Shown one piece after another: positions 3,105 to 60,175 of a stretch of DNA of 64,000 nt. The notes below the pieces were generated by a model. It did no database searches and was not told the origin of the DNA. It saw only the letters and a program-made list of their open reading frames with translations. Source of the DNA: Mugil cephalus (taxonomy: Eukaryota; Chordata; Actinopteri; Mugiliformes; Mugilidae); assembly GCF_022458985.1 (NCBI RefSeq), contig NC_061777.1, positions 12,861,668-12,925,667 on the forward strand. The letters are read 5' to 3'. A program made the position numbers and the translations under genes. Every line of letters begins with the position of its first letter. Position 1 is the stretch's first letter.

Positions 3105-35963
<32,859 letters not shown>

Positions 35964-36450
35964 CTTCCCCAACTTTAAACCGGACTCTTCTTCTTCTTCT
36001 CCTCCTCCTCCTCCTCAGCCGACCAGGCAAAAACAACCAAACTTCTCTTGTCGCCGAGCAAGACTCTCATAGAAACACAAATATCCGGCCAAACACACTG
36101 AGACGGAGAGAGGGGGGGAGGAACGGAGCCCCGAAGAGGGAAAAAAAAAAATACACCTTATCTTCAAACCTCTGCTTCCCACATGGGAGAGTTGGAAGTT
36201 TGCTCTTCGTGTGTCCTCTCCCTCTTTTCGCGGCGGGTGAGGAGGAAGTGTGCTCCGTGCGTCTTTGCGCGCAAGTTCGTGTACGCGTGTGGGTGCGCGC
36301 GGAGCTCCTCAAAGCTGATTTCTCCTCTCCACGAGCAACTCGGATGTTGGTCGTTCAGCTCATCGGGCTTTCATGTGGCGAAATGGCTATAGCGCCTCCC
36401 CACAAATAACTAGCTGACACTCTGGAGAGTAGAAACAACTAAAGCCGCGG
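35964..36450 (-). promoter_or_regulatory. pcsk5: pcsk5 5' UTR and likely promoter region
   Basis: Sequence upstream of the pcsk5 ATG. It is richer in CpG than its surroundings and has GGA/GAA repeats in the probable leader. No convincing TATA box is seen and the transcription start is not determinable from sequence alone. Confidence 0.5.
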
Positions 36451-40249: not shown

Positions 40250-41011
40250 GACTTCCAACTGCTCAGAACTTTATTTTGAGAGAAATGAGGGTTAAAATTA
40301 AATTAAAATATAAAAATTTAGATAGGCAGGTCTGTCGTTAAAAGGGGTAAATGTTGACGGGGAGACGAGGCAGCCCTCCAGAAGATGCGATGAGAGAGGT
40401 GGGAGGGGAAAGACAGGAAGCTACAAAATGAAGATTAAGGGGGGGAATGAGCCTGGTCACTCAGGAAGTCATGTATAAAAAGAAAAGAAGAAAAAAAAAA
40501 AGAGGAGACAGATGCAGTTAGTCATTATAAACCCCACCCCCATCTTAAGTGTCCTCATATGCAATCAGTGCTTTAGCTCTCTTTTTCCTTTTTCTGATTT
40601 CTTCCAAGTTTGTGATCGTTTATCTTTTCCACTTTCTCACCATCATGTCATTCTGTCTTAATGTAACATCGTTTCCTGCAGTTTTGAAAAAAGTAAACAA
40701 AAAGTCCTTCAAAAATAAAATGCAGCAACCACATTTCATGTTCTACTATTACATATACAGTATATATATATTTATATATATAAATACATACATAAATATC
40801 TTACATGTACAACCAATTTTGAAAAGGGGGGGAAGAGAGAACCCAAAAGACTTATGAGGACTTGTGGAGGTGGGGGAGAGCAGGGCGACGGGGCCCAAGG
40901 TTGCTCATTGTGAGGGTAGTGTGTCTTTCCATTTGCTTTTTTGTTTTAGCTTTACACACACGCACACACAGCCTTTTGGGGGAGGGAGGGGGGGAGAATG
41001 GGATTCATTCC
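40250..41011 (-). other. ubap2: ubap2 3' untranslated region
   Basis: Sequence from the stop codon to the AATAAA signal. It contains TA/TATT-rich stretches (40,755-40,800) and a CA tract at 40,955-40,970. Confidence 0.6.
40270..40275 (-). terminator. ubap2: ubap2 polyadenylation signal
   Basis: AATAAA on the minus strand (TTTATT on plus), about 740 bases after the ubap2 stop at 41,012. Cleavage would be expected near 40,250. An alternative downstream-processing site cannot be excluded. Confidence 0.65.
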
Positions 41012-41677
41012 TCAGTTTGCCCAGTATGGGGAGCTGCCGTAGCTGGACTTGCTGCCTTGGGTTTTTTGCTGCATGCCGCTGGACTGACTGCGCTGACCAG
41101 GACCACCCTGCAGAGAAATAAAGTCCTCTCAGTGAACATGTTTAAAATCAAGTCTATTATTTATTCATTTTATCCTCTCCGACATATAGGACGGACACAA
41201 TCTTGGTCCATGAATCCCAGAAAACAAACATTTTTCACAATGAAGCCAACCTACAATTATCATTTTATCCTATCGAAATTTGTGATATGTGGCACTATTT
41301 CTACTAATTTAATAGACCAGACTCTGATCAGCTAATTCACTAAGTGAAGGTTTGGAGGAATCCAAATATTGGGTGCCATTTGAAGGCATATATAAAATAA
41401 TGTAAACATCACCACGCTGAATTTAAGAAAAAACTCATGGATAAAGAAAGGATGTGACATCCACATAGGAACTATTGCAGTTTACCTGTCCGTCCTGTGT
41501 GAGATGATGGTGCATCAGCTGGGAGTGGGGCTGTTGGTGTGGAGGCAGGATGTGCAGGAACTGAGCAGGGGCATAGCCGGGTGCACCCCCAGGGTTCAGG
41601 GGGCCCGTTCCTCCCAGAGCTGAAGGCAGACTGAAGGGAGGTGGTGTCCCCGTGTGGAAGCCCTGTTTGTCAAATGA
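41012..41677 (-). CDS. ubap2: ubap2 last two exons: conserved C-terminus
   Basis: Exons 41486-41677 and 41012-41107 encode [20 protein letters not shown], ...[31 protein letters not shown] and the end [13 protein letters not shown], then TGA. Very close to vertebrate UBAP2 and distinct from the SYSWGAN-type end of UBAP2L. Confidence 0.96.
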
Positions 41678-44600
41678 CTGAGGAGGCAAAACCCAGATTA
41701 TAATTAGTGCATGCGTGTAGAGAACATTTAGTCATTTTGATTAGCTAACTCAAGACTACCACCATCATACAAGCAGAAACATTACGCCTCGATACAGCAC
41801 AGGCACAAACATGTCACGCACCTGTGTTTTGCTGTAGATCGAACCTCCCATCTCAGGTACTCCACCACTCGTACCCGATCCTGACAATCCTGGCGCTGAG
41901 GGAAGAATGAAGTGAGGGGGGAAGGACAGAAGTAAAGAAAAACGTTGGAAGAGGAAAGGGAGGACATGAAATCAAGAGGTTAAATCGGTAGAAAAACTTA
42001 GTTACTGATGATGAGTGTGTCTGTTTTCACCGTTAGTAGGATGGGGGCAGCCAGTAGGAAGAAGCATATTAAATGAGGAGGTGCAGAGGCATGTGTCTCA
42101 CTTTTCTACACCGCCCTTTGGTATGTACCCAACTATGTGCACATAAAAAGTGCAATCACACACACGTGCATATACACACCTTTCTCCAGAACACTCTTGA
42201 CGCAGACTGCAATTGTGAGTATACTCGCTTTTTCCCACTGGGCGATGCCCTCTGACTTTGTGTGTTGTTAGAGTGTGCACATGTGGTGTGTGTACCTTTC
42301 CCTGGGCCGCTGCCTGCTGACTTGGCCTGAGATTGAGCAGAGCCTCCGTACCCTGCCTTACTGTATTCCCCACCGTGGGCTTGAGACAGGTCATCAAAGG
42401 CTGAAGGAGGAGGAGGAGGAGGAGGAGGGAGAGTAGAGAGGAGAGAACGCAGGATGAGCAAGAGAGAGGGAGAGAGTAGGAAGACAAAGCAGATGAAGAA
42501 AAAGATTTTGTGAAGGAAAGGAGTGAAACAGAAAGAAGAGAGAAGGGGGCAGGGGAGAGAGAGGCAGTAAGGTAACCTGACTAAAATGGCAGCTGTGTCT
42601 ATAATGAGCTGTGTCCAACTTCAGCAGGGGGTTTGAGCTATGCATGCAGCACAAGCAAAAACACACCGACCCAACTCCACACACATGCAGAAATCGTGTA
42701 CGCGTATAAAATATCGGAGGACATTTCTGTTTCGCCGTCCTTTCGTCTCACATGATTTCAACACGGTCAATGTAAAGTTCGTCTTAATGCTAAAAGTGTC
42801 GTTGAGGCATCCGACTCCAAGAAAACATGCAGTGTTAACCTTTCAAAAACACAACGAGTCAGTGCCTTGTTTTTTTTTTTGTCTTTGTTTTACCTGTGCC
42901 GTACGCATGCTGTCCATAATTGGGCTGATGCTGTTGGTGGTACTGGTTGGAGGGGTTGGCCAGGCCCATCGCTGGCTGCTTGGCTGAAGCAGGAGGGACG
43001 AACACGGGGCCGTACTGGAAGGCTGAGGGAACCCCGGGCATACCGGCGTAGTACGGCAGACCTGTGGAGCGAACGTGAAAGAAGACTGCTGAGCAACCAT
43101 TTCTAAATATGGTATTAATTAATGCAATTTACAAACTCGGTGTGCATTACCAGTTATGTAAGAACATTTAAACTTCCATTTATAGGAAAAGTATTTTCTC
43201 CTGAATTACTCCTCTCTAAACAAGGGCTCAGGGCTCAACTAACTTAAATCAAACAAACAGGCCAAGAAGCATTTAAACCAAGGCAGACGGTAGCTTGCTG
43301 TACTTTGGACTAGGTGTTTAGTGGAAGTCAACATCTTCTTTGCTTTTTCTTACCAGTGTATCCATAGCCAGGAGGGAGAGGAGGGTTGAGGAAGGCCTGG
43401 TTCTGCGTCTGCTGCCCCTGGCTCTGCCCCTGCCCCTGGCCTTGTGTTCCAGTCTGAGGCGTTTGCTGGGGCTGTGACTGCACCCCAGCTGCAGACAGGC
43501 TTGTTGGGGGAGCTGGAGACGAAGAGTCGTTCCTGCCAAACTTTGTTGCCTCACCTGGACAGAAACCAAGTAAGGGTCAAAAGTTAAAAAATATTTGCAA
43601 ATTACTTGTAGGAACATGAACTGAGATATCCACTTCGACTCAGCATAAAAATTGACTTGCCGGAATATGGATTATTGGCCAAGGCATCTCTTCCAGGCAT
43701 AGGAGCAGTAGTACCAGGGAATGTTACACCATAGTAGTCCTGTAAGTGAAGAAGTAATAGTTAAAAGAAAAGTTGTGCATTAATTCAATCAATTCTATCA
43801 ATTATATAAAGTTACTTTTAAGTTAAGGCAAGAATGTAATAAAGGGAAACAATTGTTTCTCCGTTTCATTGACAATGAACTAGAAATATTTGAATGACAA
43901 CACTCACCAAAGGAAGGCGCGACTGTAGCATCTGCAAGTCCTCGTATCCATAGATTTGCTGTTGCAGTAAAGATAAATTAAGATTTATTTTCATGTTGAA
44001 GTCTCTAAAACCACAAGCCTATTCTCCTTTGACCCAAACATGTTTTACTGTAGCTTCTACTAAGCTTTAGTCAGTGTTTCAGTGCGTTCCATAGAAGTCA
44101 TGTTTGATCAGAACCTACTAAAACACAGTCATCATCAACACTGAAAAAGCTCTGTAGAATAATAACACATTTTATCCCATCATTGATCAACATATCCACT
44201 CATGGAAACTGCAGGGCTCTCATATTGTACATATGTTCACTCTTACTACAGTGTACGTAAGACACCAACATCCACCTATTATTAGCAGTTCCAGCCATCT
44301 TTATCTTTAAAAAGTTATGAGACAAATAAATACACAATGATAAAGAAAGCATATTGTTACCGGGTAAGCAGGAAGCAAGCCACCAGGGCCCATAATGTAC
44401 TGGTTGGCCAGGAGAGGAGGTACTCCTTGGGCCAAGTTGGGAGGAGCTTTACCTGGGGGAAAAGGGGGAACATAATCGGTATTTTAAAACAATTTAATCA
44501 ATGGAAGTTGTAAAGATTGTGTGTTCAGATCAAATTTACCGGAGGTGGTGGTGAGCAGAGGCGCTGTGCGACTGCCCGCAGCTGAGAGTGTGGCATTCGT

Positions 44601-47600
44601 GCCATTAGGAGTTAGTCCTGGTGCTCCAGCTGGGTGCAGACCATTGGTGGCTGAGCTACTGATAACTGGAGGAACTGAAGGACTGGGATTGACAACTTGG
44701 CTGGATGACGAAGATGAAAAAGCATGAAGGTTGCCGCTGCTGCTGTCATCATTACTTAACTGTTTGGAAGAGGAATCAAACAGAGAATTTTAGAAAACAA
44801 CCAGGACTTTGTCAAAAGAAAAAGTAAAACAGACTGCTCAGAGTTTTACATCTGTGTGTTTTCTCACCGTCAGGGAGGAGCTTGTGGGGAGGGCTGAACC
44901 AGATGAGTGATTACTGCTCACGTGACTACAAAGATACAGAAGTGATTGTTTAAATCTGGTGGTGGCAAAAATGCACTTTAAATAGGAAGCATGACGAGCA
45001 AATGTGAGATTCAGGGTGAAATATTTCCACAAAACAGGATTAGGATATGTGCTTGTAAGCATCATTATCTCCTGACAGACATGCAGCGCTCAAAATATCA
45101 CAGTGTGTCCGAACCATCCCATACCTGTTGAGGGAGGGGACTGGTGTTGTATGAGATGGTGTAACTGCAGGGGAAGGGATGTGGTGGCCGGGGCCACTGT
45201 CACTCGTCATAACGGGAGACTCCGTTTTGACTGTTCTGGGTGATGATGTAGCTGATTTAGAAAGAAAACAAACAACAGATCAATACATATATAGTAAAGA
45301 GAGATTAATACATATATAATAAAATAATAATTCTATTAAAAATACAAGAATGAAAGTAAACTATCATAATGTAAAGACGGGTTGGCTCTGGTCTTAAACC
45401 TCATCAACTTTCACTGAGAGCCTTCTTTCCACATCCTACTAAATGCATTCAGCAATCAATACTCATTTTATTAGTCTCTGCCATTGCAGTGCAGTTCATG
45501 AGAACAGAAAATGCTCAAAGTACTTACTGTCCTGTGTGCTTGGCATCTTCATGCCACCGTAGCCATTCTATGAGAAGAGGAAGTGGTCATAGAAAAAAGT
45601 GTTATCATTCAGCTTTGGTCAGACATTGACTGTTCAGCGAATCATTACTGTCATTTCATGGAAAGCGAGAGAGAATAATCTTTATGCTCACCGTCAGTGG
45701 TCCACCAGCAGCTGATGGGATGTCTTTGCTCTGAGAGAAGCCAAGATGAGGCGGCAGGGTCCTTGAGCCACTGCTTTCCACAAGGTTGGCTGTGGTCGGG
45801 GCTGCAGAAGAAGGTGGAGCACCTGCACTGGGAAGACCAAGGGAGGGCGATTGCGTGGCACTTGGTAGACCCAAAGATGGTGAAGGGAAGTTGGAATCTG
45901 AAACGGCTGACGGTAAGGTGGGTATGCTGCTCATGTGTTCACTGTTCATGGGACGAAGAGAGGAAGACGTATAAGACACACACAATGAGAATATAATTGC
46001 ATTACTCAAGTCCAAGCCTTGTGCAGAGAGACACTGACATCTAATAATAGTGTTAAAGGCCGAGCCTTTTCTCTTCTTTGTAACAGCATAGGCTTTAGAC
46101 CAATGTTATGGTTAAACATTGTTGTTTATTAAATAATCACACTGACCGAGAGCAGTCATTCCTTCATCAACCACATGCACATATACAGTATTTCTAATCG
46201 AGCTATTGAAATTAAAGTTTGTTTTACTGGACAAATCTGAGACAAAATCAATCTAAACACCTGATTGGCAAGAAATAATGTTGGTGGAATCTCTGTTAGG
46301 AACTAAAAGCTCTTCTGACATTCGGCTTCAGATATTATGCAGCCAGTCTCTCACATAAACGAACCTCATACACAGATTGAAACCAGTCACTCATGCACAC
46401 ACACCTCACAGGTCCTGGCTTGGAGAACAGGCTGCTCTGTGGCTGCTGCGTGGGAACAGCAGTAGGAACAGACATGGTTCCCGGGGCCTGAGTCGTGGTG
46501 CGTTCTCTGGCCGACTCAGTCTGCGCCATGTCTACTGCCCCACTACCAGCCTCAGACCCGAAGTCAAGAGCTCCGAACTGAACGTTGAGACCAGGTATAT
46601 CTGCTGAGCCCGGCATCTCCACTGCTGACGATGGAATCTGAGGTAGACAGTGAAGGAATTTTGTAATAATTACACAACAAACACATTTTATTTCAATACT
46701 CAAAATTGAAATTGAAAAAACTCTAACTCAGAACTCTAAACCAAGCTGTAAAAAGACATTATGTCAGTGGAACTTGAACAAACTGCTAATTGAACATGTT
46801 ATAGTATAAACAGTTAGCTTGTTAGCAGCCACCGCTAGCAAGATACATTTCCAATTTCCACCTCATCCTGCAAGTACTACGGGTCTCGTCTTATCTCTGT
46901 ATCAAGGTAATTAAACTCTCAGTCTCATAAAAGGCCAGAGAACAGAACAGCTTACTTTTGAAGGAGGAGGTGCTTTGCGTCGCTGTGTCTTTAGTTGCCG
47001 TTGAGGGGGCTCTGTAATCGGAGGATCCAGTCCGGGCAGCTTCACCCCCGGAGAGGCTCCATCTCTTACTGGAGGGACAGAGGACTCGTGACCTGAACGA
47101 GGACGAAGGGTGCCAATTTCACAATTTCATTAAATGTCAAAGCCCTGGGATCAAAACAACGGTATCTGGAACGGATTATGAAGACAGCGATAGCCTTACC
47201 TGGCGGTGTGGGGACCTGTGGAGCATGTGACTGAGAGAGGCCCTGAGGCTCTGTGGTGGAAAGGATGGAGGACTGCTGTTGCCTCTGGGCCAGCTGGCTG
47301 AGCACCGCTGATGGCTCTGGCTGAAGCTTTATTTCCACTGAAGGAAATGGGAATTAGAATTTAATAGTCACATATTAGATTTCAACATTGATTTTCTTTT
47401 TTTCTACTCGAGGTTAAACGTACAGTGCTGGGCAGTGACGGGGCCATTGTCCATTCTCTGAACCTTAAGTTCTGCAGAGGGAGACGGGGCAGGTGCAGGA
47501 CTTTGCATTGGAGGTTGCCCAGCATCTTTGGAAACAGTGTTGTTGGTAGTGGTGGCCAACATCTGACTGGCTCTCTGACCCAGCCGAGGGCCGTTGAGTT

Positions 47601-50600
47601 GCTCTGATGTCCGAATGTCAGGATTAATTGTTTGCTTAGGTGCATTCAGGGACCCAAAACCAGAACCTAGGACTGAAGACTGAAGACGACACAAGCAAAA
47701 GAAGAACTTAGTACGATGACGCCATGTATGTATCATTGTGTTGGCATAAGATATGCGTTAATGTAAAAGCTGGGTCTTGTAGGTGTGTATGTACCAGTGC
47801 AGCATGCGCGTAGGTGGTACTAGCAGAGGCAGCATGGGCGTAGCTGTTGGCTGTGGCATGCGCATAGCTGTGTGTTGCAGTGCGTCCATTGTGGTGGGAA
47901 TTGGTAAACACCAAGCTTGGGCCCAAATCCTCTGCTGAGGGGCCATCGACTATCGCCCCCAAGTCAGAGTCCATAGAAGCCACTCCTGTCTTCGGCAGTA
48001 GGCTTGCCAAATCCACACTGATGAAAGACAGAAGATAAGAGGAAGAAGAAAATAAGGAGTGAATAACAGGGAGGAAACGGTAGTGTAGCGACATGGATTA
48101 AATCGAGTAAATTCTCCAATACGATCCATTTGATGGGGTGTTTTAGGTTTACTGGAACTTTTGAGCACGATAGCTTACCTGTGTCCAGGTGTGACATGAT
48201 TTGTTGGAGCAGAAGAGGCAGTGAATACTTTGGTCTCAGACAACTGTGTGTAAGAATAGAGGGAAAATACGGTCAACCACCAGATTAATACCAGAAATAT
48301 GTTCTGTATCCCATATTAACCTCCGTTTATCACTACACTAATATTGTTAACTCACATGAAATCAGTATTTAGCAAGTTGTCATTAGTAAATATCACTAGA
48401 CAATCAGGTTATCCAACACATATTTAAAGCATTGCCAACTCATCTCAGATGATTCATAAGAGCTGCCTTACATCCTCATTCCAGTCTTCTGAAGCCCAGT
48501 CTTCCATGTTGCCTCCCCAGTTTCCTAAGAAACGCATAAGAGCAGTCAAGTTAGCTTAGCAGCTAGCTTAGCTTTACTCATGTATATCAATGTTCCCATT
48601 TTGTGTAAATTTTACTTTTGTGTGTACAGAGTCAGAAATACGATATTTGTACTGCTAAAGAGAATATTGATACTAGCCGACAATCAAGTCATTTCGTAAA
48701 GAAAGAGCAGGGTAGGACATTTTCCTTACCAGTTCTCTCAGCAGGTTCGTTACCATCCCCTTCCCATGCCTCCTGGCGAGCTCCAGAGTTAGCAGTGTAG
48801 TCAGCAGGATTGAAGGTGCTGAAAGAATTAGAAGGGGGGAAGGGGGGGCACATTAAGAGTGAGAGACATGTAGGGCAGGTGAGCCAGTGTATGTAACATG
48901 GTTGCTCATAACAGAACAATGGTAAGTCTAACTTTTTCAATAAGGAGGTTCAGAAATTTTGTTTTTCCACACATTTGATTTTAAGATATGTGCTTGTAAT
49001 CACCATCACCACCTCCTCATCTCAATCCAGCATTAACATTTATACATGGCACATATTCTTACCCCATTCCCTGCGAAGAGAACCTGTTACCAGCAGCTGC
49101 TCGTCCTCTGCCACGACCTCCTGCCCCTGGGGATACAAACAGCCAGATGACCACATATGACGAGTCTCATGCAGCCTCGACTCTTTTAGTGTATCAAACT
49201 GCATTGCAGCACCAAATCAGTAATAGATTTACGAAGAACGTAATGACATCACAGAAAAACATGCCTGGAATACATTCAATCCAGGGCCAAGGAGGCCACA
49301 AGCATTTATTTTAAGTCTAAATAGCTCAAAAGATATGTTGTTGACAACAGAAATACATAATATATGATTAAAGAAAACCTTGCCACCTCTTCAGTGTTGA
49401 GATAGAGTCAAGAAAAATGAAGACAGTCTTTACTCCTTTCCAACAATAACAAGCAGTTGTTAGGGCTGAGTGAATTCTAAATATGTTCAGAGTTGCGAGG
49501 ATCTTAAAGTGAAAATGAAGATGTTACCGGCTCTTAAACCCTGCAATATCACAGAAATACAAATAAACCTATTTAATTAAAAAAAATAATAATAATAATT
49601 CTAATGGTTACCTCTGCCCCGTCCCCGACGTCCACGGTCTCCCCCTCTCTCTCCAGGAGCCACTTCAAATCCATTCTCTTCTGGCCGACCTACAGCAAAA
49701 CAAAATTAAAACTCATACATAATCAAAGGGACCAAATCCTAAAAAATATCTTCTAAATGAGAAAACCCAGGTTCTTCATTCCTTAAACAAGACAAAGGTA
49801 CATTTTTGTCTTTCCTTACCTTCACGCCCTCGGCTGATGCCTCTGCCCCTCCTGTTGGATCCCCCACGTCCACGACTGGCCTCCCTCTCTCCTCCTTTCT
49901 TCTCCCTACTCTCCTTTATCTCAGAGGGTCCTTCTTTGCCAAGGCTACGCTTCTTCCCCACAGTCTCCCAGGAGTTCTGCTAGAGATTAACAGAGGAGTA
50001 AGGAGTACAAACTGCAGTTATATGTCTGTTTTAATAAATGGCATGCTTGATTGTGCCTGAAGTCAAAACAGAATATGACCCACATGTGTAAACTCTCTTA
50101 CCGTGTCAGAGGTGCTCTCCAGCAGAAAATTGATGGCTCTGTTTACATCTTCGTTGCAGTCATGGAGGGCTACCATGCACTCATCTTGGGTCTTTCCAGT
50201 TACCTCGATCAACTGCAAGCGTGGCGAACAGAAAAAGAAAGTGATAAGTCAGAACATGATGTTACACAATGAAGGAGCTCGTATTAATTTCCAGGAAACC
50301 ACGCAGGTGATCGAGAGGATGGATTTTAACATGTTACCTGTTTGACCTTATCTTCAAAGTCAGCATCACTTTTGTCGTAGATCACTTGGGCTAAACGAAT
50401 CTGTTCTGCTGTGGCCTGGTTTAAAAAATGTAAAAAAAAAAAATGACATAAGACACAAGGCAAAAGCAACATATGTTGCAGTACAATCTAGAAACTCTTT
50501 ATAGCTGCGAAAATTTTACATTCCCTACATATTTCTTTTTCAATGTCAGTGCAACCAATGTTACATCATCAGTTAAATCAAGGCAGCCAAGAATGGAAGG

Positions 50601-50779
50601 CCTCCTAAACTAATCTTTTGTTGAACTAAAAATAACCATGTTTTGATTGAGGAGGGCATTTTCTTGGTAATGATGAAACCCACCTGTATCTGTTTCTGTG
50701 GCTGTGTTGTTTGTGTGGTAGTGGGCAGTGGTCTGTCCCGAGTCCCCCGGGCTTGATTGCTGACCACTGAAGTCATCAT
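41012..50779 (-). CDS. ubap2: Ubiquitin-associated protein 2, complete (28 coding exons, 1,177 residues)
   Basis: Ubiquitin-binding, RNA-granule-associated protein; UBAP2/UBAP2L proteins promote stress-granule assembly and RNA polymerase II degradation. Coding exons: 50684-50779, 50338-50415, 50102-50212, 49820-49979, 49612-49689, 49063-49126, 48730-48818, 48472-48524, 48179-48243, 47795-48017, 47424-47679, 47200-47337, 46956-47092, 46405-46637, 45692-45941, 45528-45567, 45125-45251, 44868-44925, 44540-44759, 44361-44452, 43908-43958, 43661-43739, 43354-43554, 42894-43061, 42296-42400, 41822-41895, 41486-41677, 41012-41107. They total 3,534 nt. Domains: UBA about 47-95, RGG-rich 120-195, Lingerer/UBAP2 core [12 protein letters not shown] at 532-543. 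The SSVLGSGFG block, the C-terminus [11 protein letters not shown] and KIF24 next door identify UBAP2 rather than UBAP2L. The ATG ATG pair gives a MMTSV start as in human. One intron is GC-AG. Confidence 0.96.
42401..42429 (-). repeat. (TCC)n tract serving as the polypyrimidine tract of ubap2 exon 26
   Basis: GGA repeats on the plus strand. On the transcribed strand they give an unbroken TCC/CTT pyrimidine run ending in CAG at the acceptor of exon 26 (exon start 42,400). Confidence 0.85.
43661..43739 (-). CDS. ubap2: ubap2 exon 23, followed by a GC donor
   Basis: Encodes [20 protein letters not shown] and ANNPYS plus the first base of Gly900. The intron begins GCAAGT (43,660-43,655) rather than GT. 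The next exon (43354-43554) starts GT GAG GCA ACA AAG TTT, giving [12 protein letters not shown], the expected family sequence, so the GC donor is needed to keep frame. Confidence 0.9.
44071..44144 (-). ncRNA. Candidate C/D box snoRNA in ubap2 intron 21
   Basis: 74-nt minus-strand segment between ubap2 exons 21 and 22. An 8-bp perfect terminal stem is formed by TCAGTGTT at the 5' end and AACACTGA at the 3' end. Inside it are a C box (ATGATGA), an internal CTGA (D'), a weak C' (TGACTTC) and a final CTGA (D box) directly against the stem. Length, box order and intronic position about 110 nt before the acceptor are typical of box C/D snoRNAs. A possible guide before D' is TTTTAGTAGGTT. I cannot name the family, and expression is not shown by sequence. 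Confidence 0.6.
45006..45071 (-). ncRNA. Candidate C/D box snoRNA, copy A (SNORD121-like?), ubap2 intron 18
   Basis: 66-nt minus-strand segment with terminal stem GAGAT/ATCTC, C-box-like ATGATGC, the block TTACAAGCACATATC and a final CTGA. The 3' end lies 80 nt before the next exon, the classic distance for intronic C/D snoRNAs. The 15-nt block recurs exactly in copy B (48,944-49,016). Human UBAP2 hosts SNORD121A and B, which suggests identity, but I cannot compare sequences here. The C box departs from consensus at the last base. Confidence 0.5.
46405..46637 (-). CDS. ubap2: ubap2 exon 15: conserved Lingerer/UBAP2 core
   Basis: Encodes [20 protein letters not shown] and FGALDFGSE, the most conserved motif outside the UBA domain (DUF3697), followed by a variable Thr/Gln/Pro-rich segment ending [10 protein letters not shown]. 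Phase 0 in, phase 2 out. Confidence 0.95.
48944..49016 (-). ncRNA. Candidate C/D box snoRNA, copy B (SNORD121-like?), ubap2 intron 7
   Basis: 73-nt minus-strand segment with terminal stem GGAGGT/ACCTCC (extendable by an A-T, a G-T wobble and a T-A pair), C-box-like GTGATGG, the shared TTACAAGCACATATC block, a shared TGTGGAAA block and a final CTGA against the stem. The stem sequence differs from copy A yet still pairs perfectly, a compensatory pattern. The C box departs from consensus at the last base. Confidence 0.52.
49063..49979 (-). CDS. ubap2: ubap2 exons 5-7: RGG/RG-rich RNA-binding region
   Basis: Exons 49820-49979, 49612-49689 and 49063-49126 encode [12 protein letters not shown], then Arg/Gly repeats ([46 protein letters not shown]). 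Such RGG tracts bind RNA and are methylated by PRMT1 in UBAP2L. The acceptor of exon 5 has the tandem form TAG/CAG, so a Gln may be included or skipped. Confidence 0.94.
50102..50415 (-). CDS. ubap2: ubap2 exons 3-4: UBA domain
   Basis: Two whole-codon exons (50338-50415 and 50102-50212) encoding [26 protein letters not shown] and then [37 protein letters not shown]. This is the ubiquitin-associated three-helix fold with the TGKTQDEC...HDCNEDVN...FLLE pattern of the family. Confidence 0.96.
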
Positions 50780-50821
50780 ATACAGTATATACAAAACAAT
50801 GTATGTACAAAATAGAAAAAT
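50780..50821 (-). other. ubap2: ubap2 5' UTR part of exon 2
   Basis: A pyrimidine-rich acceptor (TTTCTTGCTCTCCAG) ends at 50,822, so exon 2 begins at 50,821 with about 42 untranslated bases before the ATG pair at 50,774-50,779. Confidence 0.7.
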
Positions 50822-52180
50822 CTGGAGAGCAAGAAAGAGAAAAAGAAGCAAAGTGAGATGGTATGTTAGATCATGGTAACATTCCCATCTCAAGATACAC
50901 TGCTGAATTAATATGCAATGCAATAAAGAAAAGTGAATATAAGCAGACTGAGACGCACTGTTGTCAAGTATACCATGTAAGACTATAACCCCCATCTGTC
51001 GCCCCCCACATCCCCAGTTAAATATAGCTAGCCAAGAGGGGACTGTCCGGGTGTCAACTTACAACCCTCCCCTCTTTCGGTTTCCCCACATAAACACCGT
51101 CGAACACTTATTTGTAGTTTGAATACTTTTTTTTCCTACAGCGTGTGAGAACTACAGAAACTGAAATTTGATTAAAGGCAATAAGTGACGATTAAACGGC
51201 ATGCGCTTAGCGGCAGATGACGTATATATAAAGTATAAAAATAGCTTAAGTTGAATTATATCCCACACCTTAAGAGGGTGTAAAATGAGTAACAATGATC
51301 AACAAACAATGTGTCAGCGTCCTATTCTTTGGGAGAAACGTTAGAAAACCGTTGACGTTAGACAACGACGCACCATTAAACTGTTAAACGCATTAAGTAA
51401 GTGCTGTTATTGGCGTGTTTTCCTTTTATTTAACGTAAGTAATATCAGAACCGTAACTTTATTTGGCCGAATGTTTTAGAAGACGCTCGACGGAAATATA
51501 AGCCACACTGGCTAACGCTCACGTTAGCCGTATCCGTTGCTAACCGCTCCTCTTTGTTCCGTGCTCACAAACCGTTCCTACGGTTAAAATGTCTAATTTC
51601 TACTTTAAAGACATTACGGGCGTTAATAAACGATCTGCCAATCCGTCCCCACAAAGCCCCGCAGAAAGATTAACAAAAAAATAAACAAATGTGACAAGTT
51701 CGATGTCGAAGCCTTTTGTGTAGACCTAAGGAAAAGCTAACGTTAAACATAAAGTGGCAAACCTAGCTAATGTTAGCTAATGTACGCTAACAACTGAAAC
51801 GAAACGAAAAGCGATCCCTGTTTTATTAACGCCGTCACAACGGCGAGTGTCCCAAATTTAGCGTTTAAGAACTCGATGTGGGGGATTAAGACGTCGAAAT
51901 ACGTGTGGCCCATTAAGCCGCGACAGATATCAGCAGCATGCTAAGTGGCCGGCATGTGAACGGCCCGTCCGCATACAATGCACCACTAACAGTACGGTAC
52001 CAAAACTGGCTAGCTGGCTAGCGGAGTTAGTTAGCTAATCACCGAAAAGGACGAAATGGGTTTCTAAATTCGCTCATCGGCTTTTTTCAAACTAAATGAA
52101 ACACATACGACAAGATTATTGAACTGTTAAAAGAGTTTATAAACACCATCGACACAACAAATGTATAGTCTTCCTTTTAC
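50822..52180 (-). other. ubap2: ubap2 intron 1
   Basis: 1.36-kb first intron between a non-coding exon (donor AGCAG/GTAAAA at 52,181/52,180) and exon 2. No coding or RNA gene recognised. Confidence 0.65.

Positions 52181-53220: not shown

Positions 53221-60175
<6,955 letters not shown>

Follow-up and report, generated by a model that had tools for sequence, protein, structure and literature searches.

We analysed a 64,000 bp window of the Mugil cephalus genome (contig NC_061777.1, positions 12,861,668–12,925,667 of the forward strand; coordinates below are those of the window). In two introns of its ubap2 gene we found a pair of elements that we read as SNORD121 genes, encoding box C/D small nucleolar RNAs (snoRNAs) that would guide 2'-O-methylation of 28S ribosomal RNA (rRNA). 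We put the probability of this reading at about 0.92. Copy 1, a SNORD121-like snoRNA of 66 nt, occupies positions 45006–45071, and copy 2, a SNORD121A snoRNA of 83 nt including its terminal stem, occupies positions 48939–49021, both on the minus strand. The anatomy of the elements, the match to the family model, the host gene and the placement in its introns were observed directly; expression, processing, target and methylation in the mullet we infer.

The family assignment comes from a search of the window with the covariance models of 4,227 Rfam families. RF01191 (SNORD121A), with a cut-off of 44 bits, was the only family that reached its cut-off anywhere in the 64 kb. It did so in copy 2 (48,939–49,021, minus strand), whose 44.2 bits (E 3.9e-5) barely exceed the threshold. 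The next-best match in the window was copy 1, with 35.6 bits to the same model over 45,003–45,077 (minus strand) and an E value of 0.0063, counted over the whole window and all families. An earlier note made from the letters of this DNA had proposed that the pair are the fish copies of SNORD121 and had named the Rfam model as the check; the identity is supported, and copy 2 passes the model at its cut-off while copy 1 does not. Since copy 1 lies below the cut-off we call it SNORD121-like and describe it as a paralogue of copy 2. Only three matches in the window had E values of 0.5 or lower, the two SNORD121A copies and a SCARNA7 match at 12,931–13,136 (minus strand). With 22.2 bits where the cut-off is 65, and an E value of 0.29, the latter is probably due to chance.

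The layout of RF01191, a C box, a CUGA D box and a closing terminal stem, is present in both copies. The C boxes, read from the sequence and measured, are ATGATGC at 45059–45065 in copy 1 and GTGATGG at 49003–49009 in copy 2, and the D boxes (CTGA) lie at 45011–45014 and 48950–48953, respectively. Both C boxes deviate at the last base, as the earlier note had remarked; this is a trait of the family, whose Rfam consensus is AUGAUGU. Two segments, TTACAAGCACATATC and TGTGGAAA, are common to the two copies. The first forms the putative D' guide block at 45044–45058 in copy 1 and at 48985–48999 in copy 2, where the guide stops before the last C; this assignment draws on the sequence and on pairing with a provisional 28S segment. 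The shared block TTACAAGCACATAT would be the D' guide, and TGTGGAAA appears, by comparison with the family, to span the expected C' box. The mullet copies resemble SNORD121A/B (RF01191) in the C box AUGAUGN, the D' guide CAAGCACAUAU, the C'-like UGUGGAA, the CUGA D box and the terminal stem. They differ from the family in the base preceding CAAGC, which is A in the mullet and C in the Rfam consensus, in having a degenerate D' box rather than CUGA, and in their stem sequences.

Direct reading and measurement confirmed the coordinates previously given for the two minus-strand segments, as well as the 5 bp stem GAGAT/ATCTC that closes copy 1. In copy 2 the proposed stem GGAGGT/ACCTCC does pair, but it is longer than was claimed, with 11 pairs (nine Watson-Crick and two G-U). 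The pairs were read from the sequences themselves; the alignment of both copies to the Rfam consensus slips in the 3' stem. The argument that stems which change and still pair betray an RNA gene holds only to a modest degree: of the five inner pairs present in both copies, four are identical, and in the remaining one both bases have changed (A-U versus G-C).

Both copies lie on the sense strand within introns of ubap2, whose coding span at 41012–50779 (minus strand) comprises 28 coding exons. Splicing of its 27 introns (26 GT-AG and one GC-AG) gives an unbroken frame of 1,176 aa, which is identical over its full length (100%) to 'ubiquitin-associated protein 2-like isoform X2 [Mugil cephalus]'. 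The remaining 119 of the best 120 among 2,718 protein matches show 75–90% identity, and those that are named come from fishes. The protein contains the Pfam domain UBAP2-Lig (E 9.2e-18), and its UBA region matches the solved structure 1wj7. Together with a kif24-like gene that adjoins it on the same strand, this bears out the naming of the host as ubap2. We favour ubap2 over ubap2l because human KIF24 and UBAP2 are both located at 9p13, with UBAP2L on chromosome 1. Copy 1 resides in the intron that separates coding exons 17 and 18 (44926–45124, minus strand; GTATGG...TTGTAG, 199 nt), and copy 2 in the one that separates coding exons 6 and 7 (48819–49062, minus strand; GTAAGA...TTTCAG, 244 nt). 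The distance to the 3' splice site is 80 nt for copy 1 and 120 nt for copy 2. According to PMC10234308, a terminal stem often makes up for a branch point that lies farther away, a statement that fits the 11 pairs closing copy 2.

Could the shared block be a chance match or a piece of a dispersed repeat, with the boxes falling beside it by coincidence? We consider this extremely improbable. In a check for repeats over the window, exact occurrences of its 12-base core CAAGCACATATC were limited to two, both at the snoRNA copies. With up to two mismatches, 12 sites were found against a shuffle mean of 6.44, a number reached by 5 of 100 shuffles. For this reason the block taken alone is weak evidence, and it is the full anatomy that counts. 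On the other hand, the Rfam E values of 3.9e-5 and 0.0063 already cover the window and all families, and outside the elements the flanks of the two copies show no likeness by eye. As a chance background, the pattern 'TGATG, 4–20 nt, CAAGCACATATC' was scanned in collections of viral and prokaryote contigs. It yielded at least 220 loci (102 viral and at least 118 prokaryote stretches), and the 225 matches in these 220 were all examined. A CTGA 20–60 nt further on combined with a stem score of at least 5 was seen in three of the 225 matches; both mullet copies have these features.

We also applied a generic scanner that combines a C box (at most one mismatch), CTGA and a stem, with G-U pairs counted half. 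On both strands of the window it returned eight combinations with a stem score of 5 or more, where 200 shuffles gave 2.96 on average; seven were on the minus and one on the plus strand, and two were registers of a single element. Copy 2 scored 10.0 and copy 1 scored 5.0. On the minus strand of the ubap2 region (41,000–50,800) two combinations reached a stem score of 8, namely copy 2 and a third box C/D candidate at 44071–44144, described below. Among 500 dinucleotide shuffles of this region, two gave one such combination and none gave two. A C/D-like combination at 48,479–48,404 was rejected, as its C box lies within coding exon 8 and its 6-pair stem is offset by three bases. The case for copy 1 depends on the SNORD121 model and on the guide.

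Chicken SNORD121 is listed in PMC2653536 with the target 28S-G-4092, reached through a 5' guide of 12 nt. If the D' box is taken to begin where it does in the family, the guide of either mullet copy forms 11 bp (ten Watson-Crick and one G-U) with a provisional 28S segment. This duplex covers guide bases 1 to 11, counted upstream from the D' box, and position 5 faces a G. Pairing at this G would be in agreement with the chicken target. From the offset of 515 between neighbouring chicken sites and human sites, chicken G4092 presumably equals human G4607. A scan of the viral contig collection for the 28S target segment gave no match. The sequence upstream of the D box differs between the copies, and therefore a second target common to both seems unlikely.

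It is established for box C/D RNAs that they are released from introns, bind proteins and direct methylation by fibrillarin. In the mullet, the host intron would be spliced and then trimmed until only the segment bound by the C/D-box proteins and closed by the terminal stem is left. The mature RNA would direct fibrillarin to 2'-O-methylate a 28S G, the one that faces base 5 of the guide as counted upstream from the D' box, and the methylated G would be the site equivalent to chicken 28S-G4092.

Several points weigh against this reading. Copy 1 misses the RF01191 cut-off by 8.4 bits, and to the generic scanner, with its stem score of 5.0, it is unremarkable, a 5 bp stem alone being nothing unusual. 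The D' boxes are degenerate in both copies, CTTA in copy 2 and either CCTA or CTAA in copy 1; a CTAA reading of the latter would place the neighbouring base, a U, in the target position. The 28S segment used for the pairing is a provisional one and not a fish sequence. The guide is shorter in the mullet, with 11 pairs against the 12 nt given for chicken in PMC2653536. In plain folding the terminal stem closes in copy 2 and in the third candidate but not in copy 1, which is a weak counterpoint because it is proteins that give box C/D RNAs their shape.

These observations would also suit a situation in which copy 2 alone is functional and copy 1 is a decaying duplicate, transcribed within its intron and poorly processed. 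The low score of copy 1 (35.6 bits versus the cut-off of 44), its 5 bp stem against the 11 pairs of copy 2, its weaker D' box and the stem left unclosed in plain folding are all in line with such decay. However, copy 1 keeps the C box core, the 15-nt guide block, the C'-like segment, the D box and a closed stem, and with its 80 nt it is the nearer of the two to the 3' splice site. We regard decay of copy 1 as unlikely, though it deserves more weight than the chance or repeat explanation, and prefer to treat both elements as SNORD121 genes.

The earlier note had further suggested that host gene and copy number were conserved over the fish-mammal split, naming human UBAP2 as the host of SNORD121A and SNORD121B. 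Chicken has two SNORD121 copies in UBAP2 introns 13 and 15 (PMC2653536), two copies are tabulated in UBAP2-W (PMC4053838), and SNORD121A is assigned to the amniote locus that includes DCAF12, NOL6 and UBE2R2 (PMC5332411). The mullet is thus like chicken GGgCD72 in having UBAP2 as the host and two copies in it. It differs in their spacing: the distance is two introns in chicken and eleven in the mullet, whose copies follow coding exons 6 and 17. Whatever the number of 5' untranslated exons, two versus eleven introns means that at most one copy can occupy a homologous intron. Hence the agreement in host gene and copy number stands, while common descent of the pair does not follow from it.

It is improbable, in our view, that the mullet pair descends directly from the chicken and human pair with the host introns unchanged since the fish-amniote split. 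Such descent would explain why chicken has the same host gene and the same copy number, and the intron mismatch carries the caveat that the chicken numbering depends on its gene model. Nevertheless, introns 13 and 15 in chicken (PMC2653536) are hard to match with positions eleven introns apart in the mullet. The same source ascribes almost all chicken snoRNA paralogues to intragenic duplication, and PMC3511168 argues that snoRNAs are mobile within genomes. We therefore consider relocation or re-duplication within ubap2 more likely than unchanged inheritance. SNORA40 (ACA40), reported for chicken UBAP2 intron 27 in PMC2653536, was absent from the 12 matches of a relaxed Rfam search of positions 40,500–51,500.

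The intron that holds the third box C/D candidate (44071–44144, minus strand) separates coding exons 20 and 21 (43,959–44,360). The candidate has the general features of the class, namely a perfect C box, a CTGA D box, an 8 bp terminal stem and a sense intronic site, and its layout is TCAGTGTT-G-ATGATGA ... CTGA-AACACTGA with an inner CTGA. Of the eight scanner combinations in the window, no other has a perfect C box. The combination of a perfect C box with a stem score of at least 8 was found in none of the 500 gene shuffles and in 4 of the 200 window shuffles. A start at 44,138 was rejected as a separate element, being an alternate register of the same candidate. The candidate shares the box C/D layout and the inner CUGA with SNORD90, SNORD79 and SNORD18; assignment to any of them was rejected at 25.4, 22.2 and 22.0 bits versus cut-offs of 41, 47 and 41, respectively. 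If expressed, it would be a box C/D RNA outside any Rfam family.

Its guides were compared with provisional sequences of four RNAs (U6, U5, U2 and a 28S fragment). The best of these was U6, with perfect complementarity over 10 nt for the D guide, which puts U96 at the fifth position, and over 8 nt for the D' guide. Among 20,000 letter shuffles, seven reached 10 with the D guide, 262 reached 8 with the D' guide and none reached both. Against a U6 target, U6 was noted post hoc among the four RNAs, the comparison covered only a small fragment of the rRNA, and the D' guide match starts only at position 5. In addition, U96 and U23 are not known to be among the human U6 methylation sites. The U6 complementarity may serve as a lead, not as a result; if it is true, it would point to a methylation of U6 that is not yet listed or to a role as a U6 chaperone. 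A broader picture, with ubap2 as an evolving nest of box C/D genes where the SNORD121 pair moved or was re-duplicated since the fish-amniote split and an undescribed snoRNA carries two U6-complementary guides, strikes us as improbable taken as a whole.

With high confidence, the mullet pair belongs to a familiar RNA family, here seen in a further species. A literature search for fish SNORD121, which left most subscription papers outside its scope, gave no paper title on that subject; because the Rfam model detects SNORD121, fish copies are probably already present in genome annotations. With this pair, the association of SNORD121 with its host UBAP2 reaches beyond amniotes to a percomorph fish, in which the guide has been retained while everything else has changed. 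The pair would also offer a clean case for testing the movement of snoRNAs between introns of one host, with host and copy number seemingly unchanged.

As to the host gene itself, its single GC-AG pair among the 27 introns falls in the intron between coding exons 22 and 23 (43,555–43,660, minus strand; GCAAGT...GTCCAG). A mini-exon near 49,540 was dropped, as by eye it disrupts the ubap2 reading frame. The neighbouring kif24-like open frame of 918 aa lies at 53,696–56,452 (minus strand). It gave 77 protein matches, several of them named KIF24 or kinesin-motor protein and the rest uncharacterized or nameless. Identity in these matches is mostly 52% or lower, the exceptions being 74% for a nameless protein and 68% over 5% of the query; with at least 75% in the listed matches of ubap2, the two neighbours are strongly unequal in their conservation. 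Two further open frames on the minus strand were judged by eye: the one at 29,784–30,251 resembles the N-terminal part of a Tc1/mariner transposase, and the one at 35,703–36,014 resembles the first exon of a furin-type proprotein convertase.

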